Assembly (NCBI GenBank): GCA_016946835.1
Contig: JACVTC010000192.1
Location: 1-64,000 of the forward strand
Direction: 5' to 3'
Length of the DNA: 64,000 nt
From: Neocallimastix lanati (nom. inval.)
Taxonomy: Eukaryota > Neocallimastigomycota > Neocallimastigomycetes > Neocallimastigales > Neocallimastigaceae
Part shown: positions 6,279 to 64,000 of the stretch, in pieces
How positions within the stretch are numbered: position 1 is the first letter of the stretch
Layout: each line of letters starts with the position of its first letter
Translations under genes and position numbers: made by a program
Notes under the pieces: generated by a model
Databases searched by the model: none
Told to the model about the DNA's origin: nothing
Seen by the model: only the letters and a program-made list of their open reading frames with translations

Positions 6279-6501
6279 TTAACCACGCCAACACCAACCA
6301 TATTCAGTAAGACAGTATTTACCAACTATATCATAAACACGAGCATCACGATCAACATAACTTCTCCATGAAAATCCACCTCTTGTGTTATTTGGTGTGT
6401 AATAACATCCATTTTTGGTACTTATATGTCTAGTAATCCATTTACATTTATCTGGATTTTTATATTGTGTATCTCTAAGATATGCTCCAACAGGGATTTC
6501 T
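6279..6501 (-). CDS. Orphan 3' exon of an unknown Cys/Trp-containing protein
   Basis: The minus strand has an open stretch ending in a TAA at 6279-6281, with normal gut-fungal codon use. It reads in part EIPVGAYLRDTQYKN, KCKWITRHIS, NGCYYTPNNTRGGFSWRSY and ends GKYCLTEYGWCWRG. It is rich in aromatic residues and holds four Cys, as in a small secreted domain. It is preceded on the minus strand by CTAATTATAG, a plausible branch site plus 3' splice site, so it is probably a last exon. No upstream exon on this strand can be found: the sequence beyond belongs to the plus-strand microexon array. It is either a gene remnant truncated by the array or part of a gene with an exon I cannot see. I do not recognise a family. 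Confidence 0.5.
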
Positions 6502-6643
6502 CTATAATTAGGTAAGATTAATTTTTTGTTTAATTGTTATTAAAAAATTTTAAAAATAATTGAAAATAACATATATTTATTATAAATATTTTTAATATTT
6601 AATAATTATAAAATTTTAATTACAAATTTCTTTATCTATATAG

Positions 6644-8868
6644 GCAGTAAGTATAAATATATATTTAAATGTATTATTAAAATTTTCTTAAAAACTAATT
6701 TTAAACAACATATATTTATTATGAATATTTTAAATATTGAATAATTGTAAATTTTATAATATAAATTATTTCATATCAATAGGGAGTAAATATGAATTTA
6801 TGTTTAGTTATTATTAAATATTATTGAAATTAATTTGTAAATAACATATACTTATTATCAATCATTCAAATATTTGATTATTATAAATTTTGATTTATAA
6901 ATTCTTTTATATAAATAGGCCGTAAGAATAAATAATATACTTTAATATTATATTAAAAATTTAAAAATTTATAATAAATAACATATATTTATCAAAAATA
7001 TTTTTAATGTTTGTTTTTATTAATATTATAATACAAATTATTTTATTATAAACAGAATGTAAGTAAATATATAATTAAATATATATAATAAAAATTTTTG
7101 AAATTAATTGTATATTATAATTAATTGTATATTATATATTACAAATATTTATTTTCATTCATTCAAATATTTGATTATTATTAATTTTATGCTACAAAAT
7201 ATTTCATGTAAATAGGCGGTAAGTATAAATATACAATTAAATATTTTATTAATAGTTTTAAAACTAATTATAAATAATAAATATTTATTATAAATTATTC
7301 ATATATTTAATTATTATAACTTTTATATTATAAATTATTTAATACAAATAGTTTGTAAGTATAAATATATATTTAAATGTATCATTAAAATTTTTTTAAA
7401 AACTAATTTTAGACAACATATATTTATTATGAATATTTTAAATATTGAATAATTGTAAATTTTATAATACAAATTATTTCATATCAGTAGGGGGGGGGGG
7501 GTAAATATGAATTTTATGTTTAGTTATTATTAAATATTATTAAAATTAATATGTAAATAATATATACTTATTATTAATCATTCAAATATTTGATTATTAT
7601 AAATTTTGTATTATAAATTCTTATATATATATAGGCCGTAAGTATAAATTTATCTTAAAAGATTCTATTAAAAATTTTTGAAATTAATTGTATATTACAT
7701 TTATTTATTATTTATATTCTAAATATTTGATTATTAAAAAATTTATAATACAAAATATTTCATATAAATAGCCCGTTAAGTTTAAATCTATATTTAAATA
7801 TATTATTAAAATTTTTTAAAATTAATTGTAAAATAGTATATAGATTATTAATCATTAAAGTATTTAATCATTAAAATATTTAATTAATATAAATTTTATA
7901 TTATAAATTATTTCATATAAATAGATGGTAAGTATAAATTTATAGTTTAATATATTTATAAAATTTTATAAAATTAATTATAAATAAACTCTATTTGTTA
8001 TAAATCATTTATATAATTTGATTATTATTAATATTATACTACAAATTATTTCATATAAATAGATAGTAAGTTTAAATATATATTTAAATACATTGTAAAA
8101 AAAAAAGAAAATTAAAATAAATTGTAAACATATATTTAATATAAATATTTTAAATATTTAAATATTATTAATATTATACTATAAATTATTTTGTATAAAT
8201 AGAAAGTAAGTATAAATTTATATTTTTATATATTTTTGAAATTAATTGAAAATAACTAATGTATATTATAAATATTTTTAAATATTTAATTATTATTAAT
8301 TTTATACTACAAAATTATTTCATATAAATAGGTGGTATGTATAAATATATATATTAATTTTATTATTAAAATTTTTTGGATGTAATTGTAAATAACAAAT
8401 TATTTATTTATTATTAATTTTATACTACAAAATATTTCATATAAAATAGTTGGTATGCATAAATTTATGCCTAGATATTATTAAAAATATTTTAAATTAT
8501 TAAAATTAATTTTAGAAATATATATATATATATATATATAATTAATGTTTGATAATTTTATATTTTTAATTTTATATTGCTAATTGTTTCAAATGAAAAG
8601 AACGTGAGCATTTATATAAATATAAATTTAAAAATATATTAAATAATTATATATGAGTATTAAAAAATATATTTAAAATATTTAATAAACTTTAATATTA
8701 TATAATAAATACTTCTGTATAAAATAGTCAGTAAGTATAGATATATATATATTACTTTGTTAATAAAATTATTTAAATTATAATAATTAAAATACATTTT
8801 AAAAAAAAAATTTAAAAAAATTATATATTTATTTATATATTTTATTTATTGTTACTCATAAATAGTGT
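6644..8868 (+). repeat. Array of 3-nt putative microexons between short introns (locus copy 1)
   Basis: Units of about 137 bp repeat. Each contains a 3' splice-like site (TTTCATATAAATAG), three bases, then a 5' splice-like site (usually GTAAGTATAAATATAT). The triplets and first positions are GCA 6644, GGA 6783, GCC 6919, AAT 7056, GCG 7216, TTT 7352, a G run at 7491, GCC 7635, CCC 7772, ATG 7925, ATA 8063, AAA 8203, GTG 8332, TTG 8450, AAC 8601, TCA 8728 and TGT 8866. The triplet varies while both flanking splice signals are kept. Deviations are GTTAAG after 7772, GTATGT/GTATGC at 8335 and 8453, and GTGAGC at 8604. Whether the triplets are real exons, recursive-splicing points or by-products of intron duplication cannot be told from sequence. 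The last units align with units of copy 2. Confidence 0.8.
7490..7501 (+). repeat. G12 homopolymer inside the microexon array
   Basis: Twelve consecutive G sit where the other units have a 3' splice AG, a triplet and GT. Long G runs are otherwise absent from this part of the window. If exonic, the run is 10 nt and breaks the multiple-of-three rule. Confidence 0.9.
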
Positions 8869-9012
8869 GTAAGTATAAATATATAGTAAATGCATTATAA
8901 ATTCATTTAAATTTATTATAATTAATTTATTTATAAATTATATCTTAATAAATATTTTAAATAATAATATATATTTTTAATTTTTATTTAAAAATTTATT
9001 TTATATAAATAG

Positions 9013-13332
<4,320 letters not shown>

Positions 13333-13492
13333 GTAAATAAAATTATATTATTATATTTTAATTTTTTATTGAAATATTTATAATTTTTTTATTATTAATA
13401 AATATAAATTTATTTATTAAAAATTGATGAATAATTAATATATTATTTATATAATAAATATTTTATTAAAATTAATGAAAATGATAAAATAG

Positions 13493-16053
13493 AAGAAGAA
13501 GAAGAAGAAGAAAATGAAGAAAATGAAGAAGAAAATGAAGAAGAAGAAGAAGAAGAAAATGTTGAAGAAGAGGAAAATGAAGAAGATGAAGAAGATGAAG
13601 AGAATGAAGAAGAAGAAGAAGAAGAGAATGAGGAAGAAGAAAAAGAAAATGAAGAAGAAGAAGAAGAAGAGAATGAGGAAGAAGAAAAAGAAAATGAAGA
13701 AGAAGAAGAAGAAGAAGAGAATGAGGAAGAAGAAAAAGAAAATGAAGAAGAAAATGAAGAAGAAGAAGAAGAAGAAAATGAAGAAAATGAAGAAGAAAAT
13801 GAAGAAGAAGAAGAAGAAAATGAAGAAGAAGAAAATGAAGAAAATGAAGAAGAAAATGAAGAAGAAGAAGAAGAAGAAGAAGAAGAAGAAAATGAAGAAA
13901 AAGAAGAAGAGAATAATGAAGAGGAAGAAGAAGAAGAAAATGTTGAAGAAGAAGAAGATAATGAAGAAGAAGAAGAAAATGTTGAAGAAGAGGAAAATGA
14001 AGAGGAAGAAGAAGAAGAGAATGAAGAAGAAGAAAATGATGAAGAAGAAGAAGAGAATGATGAAGAAGAAGAAAATGATGAAGAAGAAGAAGAAAATGAT
14101 GAAGAAGAAGAAGAGAATGATGAAGAAGAAGAAAATAATGAAGAAGAAGAAGAGAATGATGAAGAAGAAGAGAATGATGAAGAAGAAGAAAATGATGAAG
14201 AGGAAAATGATGAAGAAGAAGAGAATGATGAAGAAGAAGAGAATGATGAAGAAGAAAATGATGAAGAAGAAGAAGAAGAAGATAATGAAGAAGAAGAAGA
14301 AGAAGAAGATAATGAAGAAGAAGAAGAAAATGAAGAAAATGAAGAAGAAGAAGAAGAAGAAAATGAAGAAGAAGAAGAAGAAGAAAATGAAGAAGAAGAA
14401 GAAGAAGAAGAAAATTAAGAAGAAGATGAAGAAGAAAATAAAGAAGAAGAAGAAGAAGAAAATAAAGAAGAAGAAGAAGAAGAAAATAAAGAAAATGAAG
14501 AAGAAGAAAATAAAGAAAATGAAGAAGAAAAAGAAGAAGAAAATGAAGAAAATGAAGAAGAAAATGAAGAAGAAGAAGAAGAAAATGAAGAAGAAGAAAA
14601 TGAAGAAGAAGAAGAAGAAAATAAAGAAGAAGAAGAAGAAGAAAATAAAGAAAATGAAGAAGAAGAAGAAGAAGAGAATGATGAAAAAGAAGAAAACGAT
14701 GAAGAGGAAGAAGAAAATGATGAAGAAAAAGAAAATGATGAAGAAGAAGAAGAAGAGGAAAATGAAGAAGAAGAAAACGATGAAGAAGAAGAAGAAGAAG
14801 AAAATGAAGAAGAAGAAGAAGAAGAAGAAGAAAATAATGAAGAAGAAGAAGAAGAAAATAAAGAAGAAGAAGAAGAAGAAAATAAAGAAAATGAAGAAGA
14901 AGAAAATAAAGAAAATGAAGAAGAAGAAGAAGAAGAAAATGAAGAAAATGAAGAAGAAAATGAAGAAGAAGAAGAAGAAGAAGAAAATGAAGAAGAAGAA
15001 GAAGAAGAAAATGAAGAAGAAGAAGAAGAAGAAGAAAATAATGAAGAAGAAGAAGAAGAAAATAAAGAAGAAGATGAAGAAGAAAATAAAGAAGAAGAAG
15101 AAGAAGAAAATAAAGAAGAAGATGAAGAAGAAAATAAAGAAGAAGAAGAAGAAGAAAATAAAGAAGAAGAAGAAGAAGAAAATGAAGGAAAAGAAGAAGA
15201 AGAAAATAAAGAAGAAGATGAAGAAGAAAATAAAGAAGAAGAAGAAGAAGAAAATAAAGAAGAAGATGAAGAAGAAAATAAAGAAAATGAAGAAGAAGAA
15301 AATAAAGAAAATGAAGAAGAAGAAAATAAAGAAAATGAAGAAGAAGAAGAAGAGAATGAGGAAGGAGAAGGAGAAAATGAAGAAGAAGAAGAAGAAAATG
15401 AAGAAGAAGAAGAAAAAGAAAATGAAGAAAATGAAGAAGAAAATAAAGAAGAAGATGAAGAAGAAAATAAAGAAGAAGAAGAAGAAGAAAATAAAGAAGA
15501 AGAAGAAGAAGAAAATAAAGAAGAAGAAGAAGAAGAAAATTAAGAAGAAGATGAAGAAGAAAATAAAGAAGAAGAAGAAGAAGAAAATAAAGAAGAAGAA
15601 GAAGAAGAAAATAAAGAAAATGAAGAAGAAGAAAATAAAGAAAATGAAGAAGAAAATGAAGAAGAAAATGAAGAAAATGAAGAAGAAAATGAAGAAGAAG
15701 AAGAAGAAAATGAAGAAAATGAAGAAGAAAATGAAGAAGAAGAAGGAGAAAATGAAGAAGAAGAAAATGATGTAGAAGAGAATGATGAAGAAGAAAATAA
15801 AGAAAAAGAAAATGAAGGAAAAGAAGAAGAAGAAGAAAATGAAGAAGAAAACGAAGAAGAGAATGATGAAGAAGAAAATGTTGAAGAAGAAAATGTTGAA
15901 GAAGAGAATGATGAGGAAGAAAATGATAAAGAAGAAAATGATAAAGAAGAAAATGATGAAGAAGAAAATGATGAAGAAGTAAATAATGAAGAAGAAAATG
16001 ATGAAAAAGAAAATGATGACGGAGAAGAAGAAAATAATGGTGAAAAAGAAGAA
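13493..16053 (+). repeat. Glu/Asn-rich codon repeat (copy 1)
   Basis: The repeat is almost pure purine sequence of GAA, with AAT, GAT, AAA and GAG. In the frame that joins the CBM18 modules it reads NEEE, NEEEEE, ENKEEE and, towards the end, ENDEEE. Frame is kept throughout, since all length changes are multiples of three. A segment of 100 bp or more around the TAA at 14416 recurs almost exactly around the TAA at 15541, an offset of 1,125 bp. Lys/Met-rich and antisense Leu/His-rich frames are also open here, but only as shadows of the repeat. Confidence 0.9.
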
Positions 16054-17434
16054 ACACCACGTGAATTTACAATTACTACTACTACTATAACTGATAGTGC
16101 TACTGCTACTGACTCACAATCTGCTACTGTAACTGATAGTGCTACTGCTACTGACTCTCAATCTGCTACTGTAACTGATAGTGCTACTGCTACTGACTCT
16201 CAAACTGTTACTGACTCTCAATCTGCTACTGTGACTACTACTACAAATAAAACTCAAACTAGTACGAAAACTAGTACTTCAAGAGAAACGAATAGCAATA
16301 CTGATAGATGTGGTGAAGGATATGGTAAATGTGCTGAAGGATACTGTTGTAGTAAGTACGGATGGTGTGGAAAGAGTGAGAAGTACTGTGATGTAAACAA
16401 AGGATGTCAATCCAAATATGGAAAATGTAATGGTATAGTTGAAGATGATGAAAGATCTGATGACGATGATGAAATTACTGGAGCCCCAGTTGAAGATGAT
16501 AATGAATCTGAAGATGATGAAGAAAGTCCAAAGACTGCAAAGGTATCTGAAAATGATAGATGCGGTAAAGGATTCGGAGTTTGTAAGAAGGGATATTGTT
16601 GTAGTAAGTACGGATGGTGTGGAAAGAGTGAAAAGTACTGTGATGTAAACAAAGGATGTCAATCTGAATTTGGTGAATGTAATAAAAACAACGAAAATGG
16701 AAAGCAATCTGATGCCGAAATTACCGGAATTCCAACTGAAGATGATAATGAATCTGAAGATGATGAAGAAAGTCCAAAGACTGCAAAGGTATCTGAAAAT
16801 GATAGATGCGGTAAAGGATTCGGAGTTTGTAAGAAGGGATACTGTTGTAGTAAGTACGGATGGTGTGGAAAGAGTGAAGCCTACTGTGATGTAAACCAGG
16901 GATGTCAATCCGAAATTTGGTCAATGTAATAGTACAGGAAAAACTGAAGGAAAAACTGAAGGAAATACTGATAGATGTGGTAAAGGATATGGTAAATGTG
17001 CTGAAGGATACTGTTGTAGTAAGTATGGTTGGTGTGGAAAGAGTCAAAAATACTGTGATGTAAACCAAGGATGTCAATCTGAATTTGGAAAATGTAATGA
17101 AGTTATTAATACTAATGGAAGATGTGGTATTAAGTATGGTAAATGTCCAGAAGGTGAATGTTGTAGTAAATATGGTTGGTGTGGAAAATCTAGTAAATAC
17201 TGTAATATAAGTGAAGGTTGTCAATCAGAATTTGGAAACTGCAAAACTGAGAAGACTATTACTGAGACCACCACTATGAGAACTATTAGAAAATCTTTAA
17301 ATGGAAGATGTGGTGAAAAGTATGGCAAATGTCTTCATGGTGAATGCTGTAGTAAGTATGGTTACTGTGGTACTTCCAAAAAATACTGTAAAAAGAGTTC
17401 TGGATGTCAATCCAATTATGGTACATGTTGGTAA
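16054..17434 (+). CDS. Thr/Ser linker plus six CBM18 chitin-binding modules
   Basis: After ETPREFT comes a linker of TDSATATDSQSATV repeats, a probable O-glycosylated spacer. Then come six hevein-type modules of 40 residues at 16309-16428, 16561-16680, 16807-16926, 16976-17095, 17123-17242 and 17309-17428. Each shows the pattern RCG-x4-C-x4-CCSKYG(W/Y)CG-x5-YC-x5-GCQS-x3-C, with eight Cys and the aromatic residues that stack on N-acetylglucosamine. Module 6 has Tyr for the usual Trp. Modules 2 and 3, with their acidic linkers (EDDNESEDDEESPKTAK), are near-identical and duplicated recently. Linkers in modules 1-3 are acidic, those after module 4 are not. A one-base insertion at the end of module 3 (16912-16917) changes frame, so modules 4-6 are read in another frame. 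The protein ends three bases after the last Cys (TGG then TAA). Confidence 0.9.
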
Positions 17435-27059: not shown

Positions 27060-27375
<316 letters not shown>

Positions 27376-43377: not shown

Positions 43378-43476
43378 ATGGAAACAAATTCTTTTTTTTT
43401 GTTTTTTTTTTTTTTATTTTTATTTTTACTCAACGTTTCTTTTAATACTTTTAATATTATAATAAAATGCTACTGA
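43378..43476 (+). other. Possible signal-peptide exon of locus copy 2
   Basis: ATG 43378 opens METNSFFLFFFFLFLFLLNV, a textbook hydrophobic signal core, then SFNTF and a stop (TGA 43474-43476). Read through to the AG at 43485-43486, which directly abuts GTAATA, the exon would be 109 nt and end in phase 1 with G, as all other exons here do. TACTGAAATATTTTAG also looks like a branch point plus acceptor. So either the exon has a nonsense codon, or the donor lies earlier (for example GTTTCT at 43435). The T-rich sequence makes the hydrophobic reading partly compositional. Confidence 0.3.
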
Positions 43477-46400
43477 AATATTTTAGGTAATATATATATA
43501 TATATTAATGCATAATTTAGTTGTTTAATATATAATATTTTACATAATTTTCTAATTTATTTAAATTTAATTTATAATTTCTTAATAAAAATATAGAATA
43601 CTATATATTATTTTATTTCAAGAATTTTTAATAAATTTTGTAAAAGCCCAGAGTAAATTATCTATAAATAAAATTTCAAATTTCATTATTTTATTTATTT
43701 TAAATATAAAATAGTTTAATAAATTATTATTTATTATTATTATTATTTTAAAAATATTAATATGACTTAAATAACAAAAATTTATCAATAAATAACATAT
43801 CGATATTATTTTATGCATAAATAATAAATATTTAATATTAATTTATTTATTATTTCAATATATTTTTTAATTTTATTGCTTTTTTTATTTAAATAAAAAT
43901 ATAATAATTTAGATTTTGAAGAAGGTATGAAAAAATAATATATTTTAAAAAAATATATCATTGATTTTTTTTTACTTTGTAGTTTATAGATAAAAATTAT
44001 ATAGATATTTTTTTTGTTATAGATATAGTTAATTTTTTAAATGATTTATTTTTAAATTTTTTTAAAAATAAACCATTTAAAAAATTAACTACAAAGAAAT
44101 TAGAAATATTAGGTTTAACAGATTATATTTGTATCTAATTTTTGAGTTTATAAATTTTATACTGAAGTATTAAAAAAAATACTAATATATTTATAATATT
44201 TCTTTAGTTTGTTCTGCTGGTAAATTGGATATATATATATATATATACAATTAGTATATAATAAATTTAAAATAATTATATATATTAAAGCTATTGCCTT
44301 TTTTTACAATATTACTATATATTTAAATATATATTTAAATATATATATAAATATTATTAATACAAAATTTATGAATAGGGGTGGATACATGTACTAAGTG
44401 TAAATATCATTTTTAATATATTGATATAATAAAATATATTATTATAATTAAATTATTGTTAGAAAATGTTAAAGTTGCCTTTTTTATTATAATAATAAAC
44501 TACTTATTAATATTTAACATTTCTTTTTAAATAATTTATTTGTAATTTTATAAAATATTTGAAAAATATTGTAAAATAATAATAAAAATAAAGCCTGCAA
44601 TAAATTTTGTAAGTCTTTCTTAATTATAAAATTTTATTTATTATTATTAATAATATTATATATAATATAATAATATTATAAATTTTATCATTTTTTAATT
44701 AATTTTTATTAACACTATATATAATGCTTTTATTATAAAATATATTTAATAATTTAATAAAAATTGCATTTGATATAATTATTTTTTAAACACTTTAAAA
44801 AACATAAAATTTATTATTTAATATTAAAAATGGTTATTGTATATCATAAAATTTATAATTTTATATTATAAACTATTTTACATATATATGTAGTCAGTAA
44901 GCAAAACAACATAATTAAAAATATTTAAACATTATTTAAATTATTCTAATTACTTCAATATTAAATGTATTTATTATATTTGTGCTAACTATATATATTT
45001 TCTATTTTATTTGCTTATTTAGAAGGTAGATATATATAAGTATTATTAAATATTGCTCAATACATTTTTAATATATTCAGATTAATTCTATATTAAATAT
45101 ATTAATATGTATTTTAAATTTTATTTGTTTAAATTCATTTATTTAAATAGGGGGTAAGTATAATTATATATTTAAATATATTATTAAAAAATAATAATAA
45201 TAAAAAAAAACTAAAAATATTTGTTAAATTAATACTTATTATAAATACTTTAAATATGCTATTATTGTAAAATTTTATATAAAAATTTTTTTTATATAAA
45301 TAGATTGTAAGTATAAATATATATTTAAATATATTATAAAATTTTTTTGAAAGTTATTGTAAATAACGTAAATTTATTATAAATATTTTTAAATATATAA
45401 ATATTATTAATTATATACTACAAATTATTTTATATAAATAGATGGTAAATATCAATTTATATTTAGTTATTATTAAATTAAATATTATTGAAATTAATTT
45501 GCAAAAACCATACATTTATTATAAATATTATAAATATTTAAATATTATTAAATATATACTACAAATTATTTCATATAAATAGGAAGTAAGTATATAAATA
45601 TATGATTAAATACTATTAAATATTATTGAAATTAATTGTAAAAATGTGTACTTACTATCAATCATTCAAATATTTGATTATTATTAATTTTATGATGCAA
45701 AATTTTACATGTAAATAGATCGTAAGTATAAATATATATTTAAATATATTATAAAATTTTTTTGAAAGTTATTGTAAATAACATAAATTTATTATAAATA
45801 TTTTTAAATATATAAATATTATTAATTATATACTACAAATTATTTTATATAAATAGATGGTAAATATCAATTTATATTTAGTTATTATTAAATTAAATAT
45901 TATTGAAATTAATTTGCAAAAACCATACATTTATTATAAATATTATAAATATTTAAATATTATTAAATATATACTACAAATTATTTCATATAAATAGGAA
46001 GTAAGTATATAAATATATGTTTAAATACTATTAAATATTATTGAAATTTATTGTAAAAATATGTACTTACTATCAATCATTCAAATATTTGATTATTATT
46101 AATTTTATGATGCAAAATTTTACATGTAAATAGACCGTAAGTATAAATATATAATTTAATATTTTATTAATAGTTTTTAAAACTAATTATAAATAATAAA
46201 TATCTATTATCAATTATTCAAATATTTAATTATTGTAAATTTTTTAAACTGTTTCATACAAATAGTTAGTAAGTATAAATATATAATTAAACGTATTAAT
46301 AGAAATTTTTAAAAATAAATTGTAAAAAACATATATTTATTATAAATATTATAAATATTAATTGTAACTTTTAAAATAAAAATTATTTTATATCAATAGA

Positions 46401-47123
46401 TAGTAAATATGAATTTATATTTAGATATTATTAAATATTATTGAAATTAATTTGTAAATAACATATACTTATTATCAATCATTCAAATATTTGATTATTA
46501 TAAATTTTGTATTATAAATTATTTCATACAAATAGATGGTAAGTATAAATTTATAGTTTAATATATTTATAAAATTTTATAAAATTAATTATAAATAAAT
46601 TCAATTTGTTATAAATCATTTATATAATATGATTATTATAAATATTATACTACAAATTATTTCATATGAATAGCCCGTAAGTATAAATATGTATTTAAAT
46701 TTATTGTAAACAAAAATTAAAATAAATTGTAAATAACATATATTTAATATAAATATTTTAAATATATAAATATTCTTAATATTATATTACAAATTATTTT
46801 GTATAAATAGAAAGTAAGTATACATTTATATTTTTATATATTTTTGAAATTAAATGAAAATAACTAATGTTTATTATAAATATTTTAAATATTTAATTAT
46901 TATTAATATTATACTACAAAATTATTTCATATAAATAGGTGGTATGTATAAATATATATATTAATTTTATTATTAAAATTTTTTGGATGTAATTGTAAAT
47001 AACAAATTATTTATTTATTATTAATTTTATACTACAAAATATTTCATATAAATAGTTGGTATGTATAAATTTATACCTAGATATTATTAAAAATTTTTTA
47101 AATTATTAAAATTAATTTTATAA

Positions 47124-47154
<31 letters not shown>

Positions 47155-48966
47155 TAATTAATGTTTGGTAATTTTATATTTTTAATTTTATATTGCTAAT
47201 TGTTTCAAATGAAAAGAACGTGAGCATTTATATAAATATAAATTTAAAAATATATTAAATAATTATATATGAGTATTAAAAAATAAATTTAAAATATTTT
47301 ATAAATTTTAATATTATATAATAAATAATTCTGTATAAAATAGTCGGTAAGTATATATATATATTACTTTATTAATAAAATTATTTAAATTATACTAATT
47401 AAAGCACATTTTAAAAAAAAATTTAAAAAAATTATATATTAATTTATATTTTATTTATTGTTACTCATAAATAGTTTGTAAGTATAAATATATATTATAA
47501 ATGCATTAAATTTATTATAATTAATTTATTTATAAATTATAACTTAATAAATATTTTAAATAATAATATATATTTTTAATTTTTATTTAAAAATTTATTT
47601 TATATAAAATAGTTGGAACGGATGGTAAATATGAAATAAAGAAATTATATGAATTAATAATAAAAAAATTTTAAATAAAAGTGCTTAAAAAATATTAATA
47701 ATATTTAAATTAAATTGTACATAAAATATATCTAGTTTATTTTTTTTAAATAAACTGGTATATTTAAATAGAATTAAAGATAATTATAAAGTTAAATTTA
47801 TTATATAAGTTTATAGATTATTTTAATAATATCTTATATATATTTAATTTTTACTTAATTTTATAATAATTCTAAATATTCCTGAATAAAAAATGTCAAA
47901 AAAAAATACTTATCATAAAACTTTAAATATCAATAAATTATACTAAATAATAAAAGGTATATATATATTTATATAAATTTATTATTATTAATAATTCATA
48001 AAATATACATTTATTAATTATATTTATATATAAATTTATTCAATACAATACAATATAAATAGAATGTAAGTATAAATTATCATATTAAAGTGTTAATTTA
48101 AACGTTATTAAATATAAATAAATCAAATATTCAAATCTTTAAAATTGATTTTTATTAAATTAATATTATATCATAAATTAAATTTACTTTAATAGTAGGT
48201 AAATACTGAATATTAGAAAATTATCAAAATTAATAATATTAAGTAATATATAAATTCATATTTTAAATATTTTATATATAAAAAATATATTTTTTCTTAT
48301 AAGCTAACAGAAGTGGTAAGTATATTATAATATTATTATAATAAAAATAAATAAATATATATAATATTAATCAAAGCTATAAAAAATTGGAATAGAATTA
48401 TTTTTTTTACTAACTTAATTCAATATTTTAAAAATAATTAATATTTATTTTAATGTAAAGGATACGATGACTGTGTTAGTCGTAAGTAAAAGTTTTTAAG
48501 GAATTATAATTAAATAAAAAATATTAATATGAATAATATATTTAAATAATTAAATAAAAAAAATTAATATGAATAATATATTTAAATAATTAAATAAAAA
48601 AAATTAATATGAATAATATATTTAAATAATTAAATAAAAAAAATTAATATGATTATTATTTTTAAATAATTATTTTAAAAACTAATTAAATTAAATAATA
48701 TTAAATTATATATTAAATTTTATTGAATTTTTGATATTTTAAATTGGTACGAACATTTTTTTTCGTAAATTAAATAATATAATTCTTAAAATTAATTCTT
48801 AAAATATAATTTAAAGTATGCTCTGGTAAGTATTAAAAAATAATATATATATATATTTATTTAAATGTATTATAAATTCAAAAAAATTAAAATTTTAAAT
48901 AATATTTTTATCAATATATCATATTTATATTAAATAAATAATTCATATGATTAAATAATCATAATA

Positions 48967-49026
<60 letters not shown>

Positions 49027-52000
49027 CATTATTATTATTTATAAATTTAAAATTTTTTTTGCTTCTACTTTGTTGAAATTTTAAATATTCAATTATTTAG
49101 ATATTTGTGGTAATTTCACTATAATTTTTTTTCTTTTTAAAATAATATATATATATATAATTTTTAATGATTTAATATAAAAATATTAGAAATATAAAAA
49201 AATAATATTTTAACATTAAAAATATTTTATTACTAATATTTTTTTAAATTAAATTACTATTTATTTTTATTATTTTTTATAATTTATTATAAATTATCAT
49301 TAATAGAATCGGATGATAATTGTCAAACATGTAATTATAATAAATAATTTTTTATTTTTTTAATTAAAATATTTATATTAAATTCAAATAGAATTTTATA
49401 TATAAAATTAATAAAAATTTCTTTATATATTTTTTAAAAAAAATTCACTTTTAAAATATAAATAGGTTGTAAATCTGGTAATTAAATATATATATATATA
49501 TATATATATATACAAAATAAAATAGAAAAAATACTTTTTAAAGTTTTATATTTATAAGGATTAACAATAAGAAAATATTTTTTTTTATTTTAATAAAATT
49601 TTTTTATTAAATTAATAAATTAAATGAAACATATGAAAAAATATATATATTTTAAAAATTTTTAAAAAAATAAACAACTCAATTAAAATTGTTAAATAAT
49701 TTAAAAAAAAAACCTTTAACTATTTAAAATAATTTATTTTAACATATATATATCGAAAATAAAACTATATAATTTTTTTTATAATTTAATATTTTTTCAT
49801 TTCTTATTTAAATTATAAGCTTGTGACGAAGGTAAATAAATTTTTATTAATAAATTAATTTTAATAATATGATACTATAATTTAATATAATAAAATATTA
49901 TATAATATAATATGATAAAAATTATTAAACATTTATTTTATTTAATTTCTTCTCTATATGATTTATAAATTATCAATATTATTTATTATTATCTTTAAAT
50001 TTTAAAAAATATTTTAACAAATAATTTTTAGGTCTTAAAAAATTTAATGATGGTATGAATAAATAATAATATGATAGAAATAATATAAGAATTGAAATAA
50101 ATTAAAATGAATCCAAAAATAATATTTAAAATTTTTATAATTTTTATAACTTTTATTACAAAAAATAAATGCATTTTTTATGTTAATAAATAATATATAT
50201 ATTATATATTATATATATTGTTTAATTTGATAAAATATAAAAATTAAAATATTTATATATATTAAATTTTGAATCAATAAAAATGAAAAAAAAATACTTA
50301 AATAAAAAATATAACAGATAGTAGTTCTGGTTCCAAAATAAAAATAAAAAAAAATAGATGCGGTGATTGTAAGTATTATTAATATATATTAAATTAAGGA
50401 TTAATCATCAAAAATAAAAAAAAATTAATAATAAAAGTTATATTAATAGTAATTCCTATTCCAAAATACCTAATAATAATAATAATAATTAAATTAAAAG
50501 AAAAAAAATATGAAAATATAAAAATGTAAAAATTAGTAATAAAGTTAAAAATATATAAATATGTATTAATTAAAAATTATATAAGATTAATTAATGTAAA
50601 GAAATTTTTAAAAGTTTTTTCTTTTATCATTAATATTTAAAAAAAAACAAATATGTACATTTATTTAATTATTTAGATATAAAATATTTTTTTTGAAATT
50701 ATAATTTTATTATTTAAATATATAATTATATTTATATATATTTAGTTTATTTTATATGGATAAAAATATAAGTATTTAAATAATTAAACTATTTTTTATT
50801 AATATATATTTATATAATTAATATTAATAAATTTGAAAAATAATAATAATTATAATCTTAAAAAACAAAAATAAAATGAAATGAAAAGGTAAGCTATTTA
50901 TTGAATGAATATAATAATAAATTATAATTATAAAAATAATAATTAATATTTTATGCTAAGACATTATAATAATATTGAAATTCTTTAATAAATAATTATA
51001 ATATTGATATTTTTAACAAATATATTATACTAATATATAAAATTAAACTCTATTATTTTATAATTATAAAATAATTTATATGATAAAATATTTTTTTTTT
51101 AAAAAATAATAGTTTGTACAAAAGGTAAAAATATTAAATATAATTGAATGATATTTTTATATTTTAAATATATTATAAAGAAGCTTTTCTAAAAATATAT
51201 TAACTTGTTTCCTTTTTTATATTTAATTAATTAATTATTTATTTATTTATAATAAAAAAAGAATGGAGTGGATGTAATGATTATTTAAATGGTAAATAAA
51301 TATTATGGTTTAATTAAAATAAATTAACAAAAAATGATAATAGCATCAAAAATAATTATTAATATTTTTAATATTAATATTTATAAATATCATTATTTAA
51401 TGGAAAAATAATTATTAAATAAAATATTAAATATATTTCAAAATATTTTAATTAATATATATTTGAAAATAAAAATATTTCAATTATATAAATGAATAAA
51501 AATATAAATATATTTATATATTAATTTAATTAATAATTTATTTAATTATTGTTGAAATTATATCGGTTATTATTTGTAATGTATCATTAATTAATAAATG
51601 ATTTTATTCAAAGAAAATGATTGCCAAAAGGGTAAATAAAATTATATTATTATATTTTAATTTTTTATTAAATATTTATAATTTTTTTATTTTAATAAAT
51701 TATAAATTTATTTATAAGATATTTATAAAAAATTAATATATTTTTTTATTATAAATATTTTATTAAATTAATTGATAAAATAGAAGAAGAAGAAGAAGAA
51801 GAAGAAGAAGAGAATGAAGAAGAAGAAGAAAATGAAGAAGAAGAAGAAGAAGAAAATGAAGAAGAAGAAGAAGAAGAGAATGAAGAAGAAGAAGAAGAAG
51901 AAGAAGAGAATGAAGAAGAAGAAGAAGAAGAAGAGAATGAAGAAGAAGAAGAAGAAGAGAATGAAGAAGAAGAAGAAGAGAATGAAGAAGAAGAAGAAGA

Positions 52001-61000: not shown

Positions 61001-64000
61001 CGATGAAGAAGAAAATGATGAAGAAGAAAATGATGAAGAAGAGAATGAAGAAGAAGAAGAAGAAGAAGAAAACGATGAAGAAGAGAATGATGAAGAAGAA
61101 GAAAACGATGAAGAAGAGAATGAAGAAGAAGAAGAAGAAGAAGAAGAAAACGATGAAGAAGAGAATGATGAAGAAGAAGAAAACGATGAAGAAGAGAATG
61201 ATGAAGAAGAAGAAAACGATGAAGAAGAGAATGATGAAGAAGAAGAAAACGATGAAGAAGAGAATGATGAAGAAGAAGAAAATGAAGAAGAAGCTATTGA
61301 AGTGGAAGAAAGAGATATTGAAGAAGAAGAAGAAAATGACGAAGAAGAAAATGATGAAGAAGAAGAAAATGATGAAGAAGAAGAGAATAATGAAGAAGAA
61401 AACGATGAAGAAGAAGAAGAAGAAAATGATGAAGAAGAAAATGACGAAGAAGAGTGCGTTGGTTGTAATGAAGAAGAAGAAGAAAATGATGAAGAAGAAA
61501 ATGATGAAGAAGAAGAAAACGATGAAGAAGAAAATGATGAAGAAGAAGAAGAAGAAAATGATGAAGAAGAAAACGATGAAGAAGAAAATGATGAAGAAGA
61601 GAACGATGAAGAAGAAAATGATGAAGAAGAGAATGAAGAAGAAGAAGAAAATGATGAAGAAGAGAACGATGAAGAAGAAGAAAACGATGAAGAAGAGGAA
61701 AATGATGAAGAAGAAGAGAATGATGAAGAAGAAAACGATGAAGAAGAAGAAGAAGAGAACGATGAAGAAGAAAATGATGAAGAAGAAAATGATGAAGAAG
61801 AGGAAAATGATGAAGAAGAAGAGAATGATGAAGAAGAAAACGATGAAGAAGAAGAAGAAGAGAACGATGAAGAAGAAAATGATGAAGAAGAGAATGAAGA
61901 AGAAGAAGAAAATGATGAAGAAGAAGAAAATGATGAAGAAGAAGAAGAAGAAAATGATAAAGAAGAGAACGATGAAGAAGAAAATGATGAAGAAGAAGAA
62001 AACGATGAAGAAGAGAATGAAAAAGAAGAAAATGATGAAGAAGAGAATGAAGAAGAAGAAAATGATGAAGAAGAAGAAAATGATGAAGAAGAAGAAAATG
62101 ATGAAGAAGAAGAAAATGATGAAGAAGAAGAAGAAAATGAAGAAGAAGAAGAAGAAAATGAAGAAGAAGAAGAAGAAAATGATGAAGAAGAAAATGATGA
62201 AGAAGAAGAAAACGATGAAGAAGAAGAAAACGATGAAGAAGAGAATGAAGAAGAAGAAAATGATGAAGAAGAGAATGAAGAAGAAGAAAATGATGAAGAA
62301 GAAGAAAACGATGAAGAAGAGAACGATGAAGAAGAAAACGATGAAGAAGAGGAAAATGAAGAAGAAAACGATGAAGAAGAAGAAGAAAATGATGAAGAAG
62401 AAGAAAACGATGAAGAAGAGGAAAATGAAGAAGAAGAAGAGAATGATGAAGAAGAGAATGATGAAGAAGAAGAAGAAAATGATGAAGAAGAAGAAGAAAA
62501 TGAAGAAGAAGAAGAAAATGATGAAGAAGAAGAAAATGATGAAGAAGAAGAAAATGATGAAGAAGAAGAAGAAAATGAAGAAGAAGAAGAAAATGATGAA
62601 GAAGAAGAAAATGATGAAGAAGAAGAAAATGATGAAGAAGAAGAAGAAGAAGAAAACGATGAAGAAGAAGAAGAAGAAGAAAATGATGAAGAAGAAGAAG
62701 AAGAAAATGATGAAGAAGAAAACGATGAAGAAGAAGAAAACGATGAAGAAGAAAATGATGAAGAAGAAGAAGAAAATGATGAAGAAGAAAACGATGAAGA
62801 AGAAGAAGAAGAAGAAAATGATGAAGAAGAAGAAGAAGAAAATGATGAAGAAGAAAACGATGAAGAAGAAGAAGAAAATGATGAAGAAGAAGAAAATGAT
62901 GAAGAAGAAAACGATGAAGAAGAAGAAAACGATGAAGAAGAAAATGATGAAGAAGAAGAAGAAAATGATGAAGAAGAAGAAAATGATGAAGAAGAAAACG
63001 ATGAAGAAGAAGAAGAAGAAGAGAATGATGAAGAAGAAAACGATGAAGAAGAAGAAGAAGAAAATGATGAAGAGGAAAATGATGAAGAAGAAAATGATGA
63101 AGAAGAAAATGACGAAGAAGAGTGCGTTGGTTGTAATGAAGAAGAAGAAGAAAATGGTGAAGAAGAAAATGATGAAGAAGAAGAAAACGATAAAGAAGAA
63201 AATGATGAAGAAGAAGAAGAAGAAAATGATGAAGAAGAGAACGATGAAGAAGAAAATGATGAAGAAGAAGAAGAAGAAAATGATGAAGAAGAGAACGATG
63301 AAGAAGAGAATGAAGAAGAAGAAAATGATGAAGAAGAAAATGATGAAGAAGAAGAAGAAAATGATGAAGAAGAAGAAGAAGAAAATGACGAAGAAGAAGA
63401 AGAAGAAGAGAATGAAGAAGAAGAAGAAGAAAATGAAGAGGAAGAAGAAGAAGAAGAAGAGAATGAAGAAGAAAATGAAGAAGAAGAAAATGAAAAGGAA
63501 GAAGAGGAAAATGATGAAGAAGAAGAGAATGATGAAGAAGAAAACGATGAAGAAGAAGAAGAAGAGAACGATGAAGAAGAAAATGATGAAGAAGAGAATG
63601 ATGAAGAAGAAGAAAATGATGAAGAAGAAGAGAATGATGAAGAAGAAGAAAATGATGAAGAAGAGTGCGTTGGTTGTAATGAAGAAGAAGAAAATGAAGA
63701 AGAAAATGATGATGGAGAAGAAGAAAATAATGGTGAAGAAGAAGAAACACCACGTGAATTTACAATTACTACTACTACTGTAACTGATAGTGCTACTGCT
63801 ACTGACTCACAATCTGCTACTGACTCACAATCAGCTACTGTAACTGACTCACAATCAGCTACTGTAACTGACTCACAATCGGCTACTGTAACTGACTCTC
63901 AATCAGCTACTGTAACTGATAGTGCTACTGCTACTGACTCACAATCAGCTACTGACTCACAATCAGCTACTGTAACTGACTCACAATCAGCTACTGCTAC
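43378..64000 (+). CDS. Giant chitin-binding-type acidic-repeat gene, locus copy 2 (5' end uncertain, 3' end outside the window)
   Basis: This is the paralogue of the locus at 6.6-17.4 kb. Proposed order: a possible signal-peptide exon (43378), small exons at 43913-44608, a triplet-microexon array (44894-47477), longer small exons (47613-51631), then one exon from 51784 that is still open at the window end. The phase is 1 at every junction. The end of the small-exon series joins the large exon in the frame that yields Glu/Asn repeats and the TDSATATDSQ linker. By analogy with copy 1, CBM18 modules should follow beyond 64000, and the product would be a secreted or wall-associated chitin binder. 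The predicted protein exceeds 4,100 residues. Uncertain points are the true start, since the first exon has an in-frame TGA at 43474, and whether the triplets are spliced in. Confidence 0.55.
43913..44608 (+). other. 5' small exons of locus copy 2
   Basis: Four candidates lie at 43913-43924 (DFEE), 44208-44219 (VCSA), 44379-44390 (GVDT) and 44594-44608 (SCNKF). Each lies between an AG and GTATGA, GTAAAT, GTACTA or GTAAGT, and each is a multiple of three in phase 1. Character matches the later exons (acidic, Cys). No counterpart is seen in copy 1, whose upstream part is replaced by an unrelated minus-strand exon. Confidence 0.45.
44027..44090. repeat. Near-perfect hairpin, 30-bp arms, 4-base loop
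   Basis: Left arm 44027-44056 and right arm 44061-44090 are reverse complements with a single mismatch. Outside them 'ctttgtag' (43975-43982) and 'ctacaaag' (44089-44096) are also complementary. It lies in a putative intron between the first two small exons. It could be a foldback element or a structured RNA. Confidence 0.85.
44894..47477 (+). repeat. Array of 3-nt putative microexons (locus copy 2)
   Basis: Twenty triplets lie between AG and GTAAGT-like sites: TCA 44894, AAG 45023, GGG 45151, ATT 45304, ATG 45442, GAA 45583, ATC 45719, ATG 45857, GAA 45998, ACC 46134, TTA 46266, ATA 46400, ATG 46536, CCC 46674, AAA 46811, GTG 46939, TTG 47056, AAC 47217, TCG 47344 and TTT 47475. Spacing is about 117-161 bp. 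Read across junctions in phase 1, all codons formed are sense and run without a stop into GTDG encoded at 47613-47624. Units at 45304-45720 and 45719-46136 are a recent direct duplication of three units. The later triplets match those of copy 1 in order. Confidence 0.8.
47613..51631 (+). other. Run of small phase-1 exons (locus copy 2)
   Basis: Exons homologous to those of copy 1 lie at 47613-47624, 48063-48065, 48196-48198, 48461-48481, 48817-48825, 49101-49109, 49307-49330, 49466-49477, 49820-49831, 50032-50052, 50318-50368, 51113-51124, 51262-51291 and 51614-51631. Phase-1 translation gives GTDG, GYDDCVS, LCSG, DICG, ESDDNCQT, CCKSG, ACDEG, GLKKFND, a 17-residue piece ending NRCGD, FCTK, EWSGCNDYLN and ENDCQK. 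Compared with copy 1, changes are mostly single substitutions that keep the frame. The exon at 50318 differs by 6 nt, again a multiple of three. The AG abutting GTAAGC is also kept (50888/50889). Confidence 0.6.
48968..49038. repeat. (TTA)n microsatellite, short allele of the copy 1 tract
   Basis: The tract occupies the same intron position as 10371-10632 but is less than a third as long, with one TCA interruption. Confidence 0.9.
51784..63746 (+). repeat. Purine-rich (GAA/AAT/GAT) repeat with large in-frame block duplications
   Basis: Two higher-order duplications are visible. The segment containing GAAGTAGAGAATG near 53930-54260 recurs near 56640-56940 with an offset of 2,673 bp. The segment with GCTATTGAAGTGG at 58509 recurs at 61293 with an offset of 2,784 bp, which is also the spacing of two of the Cys motifs. 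Both offsets are multiples of three. Confidence 0.85.
51784..64000 (+). CDS. Giant acidic Glu/Asn/Asp-repeat exon with Thr/Ser linker (copy 2, partial)
   Basis: The exon starts after the AG at 51782-51783. The frame with codons at positions divisible by three reads GAA/GAG with AAT, GAT and AAC for about 3,990 residues up to ETPREF (63747), then TITTTTVTDSATATDSQ linker repeats to the window end: about 4,070 codons with no stop seen. The first part is NEEEEE-type. From about 57450 onward ENDEEE dominates. Cys occurs only in five EECVGCNEEE motifs (TGC at 58671, 60132, 61455, 63123, 63666). The only other complexity is EEAIEVEERDIEEE at 58509 and 61293. The charge implies an extended, highly acidic, metal- or cation-binding spacer. 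The acidic part is about 4.7 times longer than in copy 1. Repeat length is liable to assembly error. Confidence 0.8.

Follow-up and report, generated by a model that had tools for sequence, protein, structure and literature searches.

How short can an exon be, and how many such exons can stand in a row, before a gene ceases to be readable by the spliceosome? The question is raised by a tandem array at positions 44894–47477 of a 64,000-nucleotide (nt) stretch of DNA from the anaerobic gut fungus Neocallimastix lanati, hereafter the window, which comprises positions 1–64000 of contig C104 in a genome of 199 Mb and 762 contigs. The original prediction, made from the sequence of the window, was that twenty putative exons of three bases each follow one another here at intervals of about 137 bp, each lying between a conserved splice acceptor and a conserved donor and all read in phase 1. 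We are confident that the array belongs to a micro-exon gene, in which a cysteine-rich N-terminal loop is written as tandem 3-nt exons, each with its own spliceosomal intron of ~135 nt, and whose product is a giant chitin-binding protein. The array itself is genuine and its triplets are very probably exons, as supported by a gene model that stays open throughout and by a protein sequence, P0001, that equals the spliced product of a paralogous gene.

The array begins with the triplet TCA at 44894 and ends with the triplet TTT at 47477, as claimed, and all 20 of its units follow the pattern AG-NNN-GT, with exactly three bases between the acceptor AG and the donor GT. These triplets form exons 7–26 of the gene, all on the plus strand, and start at 44894, 45023, 45151, 45304, 45442, 45583, 45719, 45857, 45998 and 46134, then at 46266, 46400, 46536, 46674, 46811, 46939, 47056, 47217, 47344 and 47475; the introns between them measure 114–158 nt and the mean unit spacing is 135.8 (117–161), close to the predicted value. 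The further claim of ‘full’ conserved splice signals stands for the AG and GT dinucleotides and is overstated for the longer motifs: the exact acceptor ATAAATAG occurs in nine of the 20 units, the exact donor GTAAGTATAAAT in seven and both together in two, with one of GTAAGT, GTAAAT, GTATGT or GTATAT serving as donor in 17. Phase 1, which is set by the flanking exons independently of the triplets, is free of stops over the 20 triplets (as is phase 0; phase 2 has three), and the array and its neighbours encode FKGDYGNHGNLNNAQSVELVF across the junctions. As had also been predicted, the array leads in frame into the exons downstream, the full model comprising 42 exons from 43467 to contig position 66434 that remain open for 5,031 codons. 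Within the array, a 415-bp block of three units is present in two copies (45304–46136; ATT ATG GAA and ATC ATG GAA), and this doubling, judged from the sequence, is a recent higher-order duplication.

Such arrays recur in the genome. A 301-base piece of the array matches at least 169 places, the best matches being in C104 (two genes), C351, C431, C70, C268, C643 (two), C445, C571, C112, C90, C25 and C235; related arrays are found at C268, C445, C643 (two), C235, C90, C112 and, in more diverged form, C135, together with copies, and the unit scan found no 3-nt units in C25. At C445 (~10–20 kb of its contig), an array of ~60 units carries a three-unit higher-order repeat (ATG ATT TTG) encoding (DDF)n. 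When the genome was scanned for AAATAG-N(0-24)-GTAAGTATAAAT, 93 matches were obtained, with N=3 in 92 and N=6 in one, as compared with eight for the reversed control pattern; the 93 are partly redundant, as C104a/C351/C431/C70 and C445/C571 resemble near-copies. A much looser pattern was dominated by noise (424 matches, viewed in part, against 217 for its control). A second scan, in which exon length was left free from 0 to 30 nt across ten arrays (including C571, the near-copy of C445), called 3 nt in 238 of 252 cases, the others being 12 nt (four), 6 nt (three), 7 nt (two) and 0, 5, 8, 10 and 15 nt (one each); its matrices were trained on 3-nt units and it favoured intron lengths of 100–185, which makes it less blind than the pattern scan. 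The 0-nt and 10-nt calls fall in a decayed copy, and on reading, the two 7-nt and the single 8-nt calls prove to be a triplet followed by AT in place of the donor GT, the 8-nt call having an extra base. There are three such AT-donor units, one at C268 (contig 221–227 kb) and two at C643 (reverse). A chance origin of the 3-nt spacing was considered and is ruled out by the 92 of 93 matches with N=3 against eight in the control, by the free-length calls and by the coding signature of the triplets.

This signature is apparent in composition, variability and reading frame alike (C571 was left out of the triplet statistics, and spacings >230 bases out of the junction counts). The 215 triplets have a guanine-plus-cytosine (GC) content of 38.8%, against 7.7% in the intron interiors, a published Neocallimastix genome having 18.2% in total and 28.1% in its coding part (PMC12341934, for these figures). 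Column entropy over 178 non-redundant units is 1.97, 1.70 and 1.94 bits at the three triplet positions and stays <1 in most of the flanking columns. When 192 junctions are read through, phase 1 contains no stops (shuffle mean 5.3, P 0.0018), phase 0 contains two and phase 2 contains 53, by which the other phases are ruled out; with C445 removed, the 137 junctions left still have no phase-1 stops against 3.6 expected (P 0.012). The 3′ triplets maintain the peptide SVEL[MVI]FGTD in C104a, C104b and C268, the equivalent in C643 being SVGEIFGED. The N-termini of five paralogous genes can be aligned (the rows for C643, C445 and C235 having been assembled by hand), with nine cysteines invariant and the array forming a variable loop between the cysteines and SVExxFG. 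Downstream of the array, a search with 13 reference exons, which had no working control and in which two exons carried the boundaries assigned before P0001 was found, gave chained matches to 12 in C104a, 12 in C268, ten in C445 (two doubtful) and seven in C643.

The evidence that carries most weight comes from C268. Its array was translated as EVHPWTSYVHGRGWTPWPINSLASLRNCNGRGPCVRGPYNKSVELIFGTD before any protein search was made, by joining only those calls divisible by three, so that the AT-donor unit (the 8-nt call) was left out. A search of 5.8 billion proteins with the spliced N-terminus (143 residues) given for the window gene by an earlier model in which exon 33 was absent and exon 35 was read as GTT (3 nt), returned a single match, P0001 (expectation value 3e-43), a continuous 248-residue protein of the Joint Genome Institute (JGI) on a contig of 1,132 bases. 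This contig is too short to hold the introns, and P0001 is an independent continuous sequence that equals the joined product of the C268 gene, array included. Where it corresponds to the C268 array it reads EVHPWTSYVHGIGGWTPWPINSLASLRNCNGRGPCVRGPYKKSVELIFGTD, and 48 of the 50 predicted residues match, one mismatch stemming from acceptor choice at the unit at local position 11769, where P0001 uses the first AG (CAG/TAGGGG) and not the second (TAG/GGG). Spliced alignment of P0001 to the 12.1-kb C268 locus gives identity at 173 of 175 residues over 67 small exons and the start of the last exon; 46 of the 67 are 3 nt long, and the array proper consists of 44 exons of 3 nt and two of 6 nt. The reverse complement of the locus yielded 15 matches, and in the array, five shuffled peptides matched at 13–17 of 51 residues and the reversed peptide at 19, as compared with 50 for the true peptide.

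The one C268 unit with an AT donor (local 13941) is absent from P0001 and so represents a natural knock-out of a splice site. A product that skips the whole array as one intron had been named beforehand as an outcome that would speak against exons, and it is not what P0001 shows: all 46 GT-donor micro-exons of the array are included and the AT-donor unit alone is missing. At the 3-nt exons of the C268 gene, then, three bases lie between the splice sites used and are retained in the joined product, and it is from the shared architecture that we infer the same splicing for the window gene. P0001 was recovered again, together with two annotated Neocallimastix fragments, by a later profile search in which scoring was limited to the 7,996 candidates with the most words in common. 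An AlphaFold model of P0001 alone was poor (mean predicted local distance difference test score 50) and was not used.

The remainder of the window gene can be described exon by exon. Exons 1–41 span 43467–51631 and total 445 coding bases, 22 of these exons being 3 nt long; 39 of the 42 exons (3–41) are <70 nt and divisible by three and form a single run, the others being exon 1 (20 nt), exon 2 (56 nt) and the long exon 42. When P0001 was aligned automatically to the window gene, the result was used outside the array only, as the array peptides differ and there it forced wrong exons and a stop. Exon 1 (43467–43486, plus strand as are all that follow) carries the ATG, encodes MLLKYF and ends in a phase-2 donor, the exon 1 of the paralogue matching P0001; exon 2 (43597–43652) supplies the remainder of a signal-peptide-like stretch, ending ILYIILFQEFLINFVKAQ. 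The same pair is found at C268, C643, C445 and C235, the likeness to a signal peptide being judged by sequence and without a predictor. There follow exon 3 (43913–43924, 12 nt), exon 4 (44208–44219, 12 nt, CSA), exon 5 (44379–44399, 21 nt, VDTCTK, with a cysteine conserved among paralogues) and exon 6 (44594–44608, 15 nt, CNKF), and then the array. On its far side, exon 27 (47613–47624, 12 nt, TTGGAACGGATG) closes the conserved SVEL[MVI]FGTD and is followed by two further 3-nt exons, 28 (48063–48065) and 29 (48196–48198), and by exon 30 (48304–48315, 12 nt), exon 31 (48461–48481, 21 nt, YDDCVS), exon 32 (48817–48825, 9 nt, CS), exon 33 (49101–49109, 9 nt, IC; found from P0001), exon 34 (49307–49330, 24 nt, SDDNCQT), exon 35 (49466–49477, 12 nt, CKS; boundaries from P0001), exon 36 (49820–49831, 12 nt, CDE), exon 37 (50032–50052, 21 nt, LKKFND), exon 38 (50318–50368, 51 nt, ending NRCGD), exon 39 (51113–51124, 12 nt, CTK), exon 40 (51262–51291, 30 nt, WSGCNDYLN) and exon 41 (51614–51631, 18 nt, NDCQK).

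The giant last exon, 42, runs from 51784 through the end of the window at 64000 to contig position 66434 and comprises a Glu/Asn tract, five CVGC inserts and chitin-binding (PF00187) repeats. Most of its residues are Glu (3,114), Asn (653) and Asp (337); the CVGC inserts, in which a CxxC motif is set among acidic residues, lie at protein positions 2594, 3081, 3522, 4078 and 4259. The tail, tested minus one internal repeat, scores 133.8 bits against PF00187, for which the gathering cut-off is 27.8, and is thus assigned to CBM18/Chitin_bind_1. The best named relatives of both the tail and the 5′ end are Neocallimastix proteins, which bears out the placing of the gene in the Neocallimastigomycota by the original prediction. 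Taken from its sequence, the product would be giant, acidic, chitin-binding and probably secreted.

How might such a gene be spliced? All array boundaries are in phase 1, so every array residue is encoded across an intron. Because 3-nt exons leave no room for exon definition, and because with at least 20 of them in a row the flanking exons cannot provide it either, the array introns would be recognized by intron definition and spliced out in sequence. It is plausible that every splice completed upstream lengthens the growing exon by three bases and so places that exon beside the next donor, in the manner of a recursive-splicing ratchet that retains three bases per step. The extended donor GTAAGTAT, which we take to pair with U1, may from inside the intron stand in for the missing exon side; the match to it averages 7.5 of 8 positions after exons of ≤6 nt (48 donors) as compared with 6.2 of 8 after longer ones (19 donors; P 3e-5). 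In none of the 67 introns does a second AG lie within 38 nt upstream of the acceptor used.

As to its origin, the array appears to have grown by tandem duplication, as is suggested both by the 415-bp block that stands twice in the window and by the pattern of three units seen at C445. Since unit and frame coincide, recombination between the near-identical introns could insert, delete or reorder entire codons and leave the frame intact. The triplets also appear to evolve at several times the rate of their flanks: in 27 reciprocal-best pairs of units (flank divergence ≤3%), 9 of 81 triplet sites differ against 33 of 2,895 flank sites, a ratio of 9.7 (Fisher P 1e-6), the triplet differences being confined to six of the 27 pairs, and in intact genes alone the counts are 7 of 63 and 20 of 2,252. 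Diversifying selection on the triplets would be consistent with these sequence comparisons and is suggested rather than proved. We therefore propose only tentatively, at somewhat less than even odds, that the gene represents a one-codon-per-intron mode in which frame-neutral 3-nt exons, a codon-by-codon ratchet, whole-codon editing by intron recombination and diversifying selection on exposed triplets act together.

Several points weigh against this account, some bearing on the exons and others on the mode. P0001 matches C268 and not the window gene, the evidence consists of genomic and protein sequence, and for P0001 itself there is just the JGI protein record, from a contig of 1,132 bases that may derive from RNA or from DNA. 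The contrast in donor strength is confounded by the common descent of the array units, and the sequential order of splicing is deduced from the sequence. P0001 and C268 share their units and the order of these and are one array residue apart, a near-identity that argues against very rapid diversification. Synonymous changes make up 8 of 54 triplet changes (15%), a share close to the 19% expected and no clear deficit, and the faster change of the triplets could be a mutational process and not selection.

This last possibility is the alternative that survives best, although we consider it somewhat unlikely: a local process of mutation or repair at the acceptor–donor junction, in place of diversifying selection on the protein, would accelerate the triplets. 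Changes of several bases within one triplet between identical flanks, as seen for ATG and AGA at C445, are what such a process might leave behind, but it does not sit easily with the conservation of the 3′ triplets among paralogues, nor with the finding that the wobble position (position 2) changes least (10, 8 and 12 changes at the three positions), a difference that is small. Less probable still, in our judgment, is that the array serves mainly as a combinatorial device for alternative splicing, as in the micro-exon genes (MEGs) of flatworms, with in-frame skipping of any subset of exons giving many isoforms. The array units used are all 3 or 6 nt and phase-neutral, so skips keep the frame, and indeed the loss of the AT-donor unit from P0001 left the frame unharmed; the sole joined product seen, P0001, nevertheless contains every GT-donor array unit, and no second isoform was found in two protein searches with the N-terminal domain, one of which scored only 7,996 candidates.

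Introner elements are near-identical introns that occur at many places as dispersed insertions with target-site duplication, and the near-identity of the array introns invites a comparison. P0001 might, on this account, stem from a gene that lacked introns, whether ancestral or retrotransposed, with the array introns inserted later between codons by introner-like elements. P0001 is not a direct observation of RNA, which leaves room for such a history, but we regard it as highly improbable: an intronless copy did not turn up in the genome, where a loose first look gave one weak match (E 0.011), which was to one of the window gene's own exons; identity at 173 of 175 residues leaves little time for >60 insertions; and the higher-order duplications (the three-unit pattern at C445 and the 415-bp block in C104) are as tandem duplication predicts. 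Unlike introners, moreover, the array introns are head-to-tail copies, each unit carrying its own 3-nt exon, an arrangement that tandem duplication would explain. Scarcely credible, finally, is a reading in which the triplets stay outside the mRNA and the AG-NNN-GT motifs act as decoys or ratchet points, either within a tandem repeat that codes for nothing or within a single long intron. This view suits the ~136-bp tandem period and the resemblance of the acceptor–donor pairs to recursive-splicing ratchet points but fails on the triplets (their GC content and entropy, the zero phase-1 stops, and SVEL[MVI]FGTD preserved in three copies though split over triplets) and on the array residues present in P0001 (direct for the C268 gene), so that, with coding signature and P0001 match combined, a non-coding repeat is ruled out.

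The micro-exon gene thus favoured resembles a flatworm MEG. By the operational definition used for flatworms (≥7 exons, at least half of them <70 nt and divisible by three; PMC7653826, where it concerns MEG identification), the window gene is a MEG, with 42 exons, 39 small exons divisible by three and a run of 39; the exon sizes given for flatworm MEGs are 3 to 36 bp (PMC10399815, for that range). Like schistosome and other flatworm MEGs, whose products are variable and secreted, it strings together many small exons whose lengths are multiples of three. Unlike these, it is fungal, carries in one run, in the genes concerned, between 20 and 46 or more near-uniform 3-nt tandem exons, shows full inclusion in the single product seen and ends in a giant acidic chitin-binding tail; the likeness considered here is one of architecture. 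Spliceosomes are able to include exons of 1–3 nt, among them a 3-nt exon of Drosophila homothorax and a 1-nt exon of Arabidopsis APC11 (PMC7392893, PMC4674806, as regards these examples); those microexons, the smallest exons named in these papers, are single, whereas here at least 20 stand in a row. In recursive splicing, as outlined in PMC8605326, an acceptor directly abuts a donor and the intron is removed stepwise; such ratchet points retain zero bases, whereas the array retains three coding bases per step and is for that reason not a set of ratchet points in the strict sense. Among fungi, microexons are described for Trichoderma Xlr2 and for Schizosaccharomyces pombe in a paper that calls the study of fungal microexons limited (PMC11121469); the inclusion of a very small exon in a fungus is common ground, but what is described in the relevant part of that paper is one microexon in a gene and not an array. 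A limited literature search, mainly of abstracts, found among the papers listed no earlier report of an array of consecutive 3-nt exons, and the array is more extreme than the reported cases which that search did find.

Beyond the main gene, the window contains a second copy (6512–17434, plus strand) that is 5′-truncated and decayed, with an array at 6644–8868, downstream micro-exons, an E-rich exon and a broken chitin-binding part with short open frames. Its truncation adjoins a minus-strand open reading frame at ~6285–6510 (read by eye), and its array has a run of at least ten G at one unit near 7490 and an altered donor near 7775. A copy at C351 is identical to this decayed copy over 3,313 bases. 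Long TTA repeats occur in the window at 10371–10632 (87 copies, within one of the introns of the decayed copy) and at 27062–27374 (103 copies), and a different repeat, AAATAGTAGAATGTGAATATAAAT, occurs in clusters on contig C27 (~319–321 kb) and on other contigs. The array remnants at C112 and C25 lie near open reading frames for copia-type polymerases (named by eye).

Genes built in this way are probably mis-annotated in public genomes, as two annotated proteins agree with our models at the start and then continue into intron sequence. P0122 (N. lanati) matches C445 at 95 of 98 residues, using exons 1 and 2, an extended exon 3 and exons 4–6 before it enters the array introns, and P0123 (N. sp. 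‘constans’) matches C643 at 62 of 66; gene finders can miss genes with one-codon exons, as P0122 illustrates. Exons so short are known singly, and the 46 joined micro-exons of C268, 44 of them of 3 nt, would make exon definition dispensable on a large scale. Dozens of consecutive 3-nt exons push the splicing machinery far past its usual range, and with 67 joins for 175 residues, the fidelity of splicing could be extreme. The arrays offer a natural system in which recursive splicing and intron definition can be put to the test. They also suggest a route to protein diversity in which introns are the substrate of recombination and one codon is gained with each duplicated unit.

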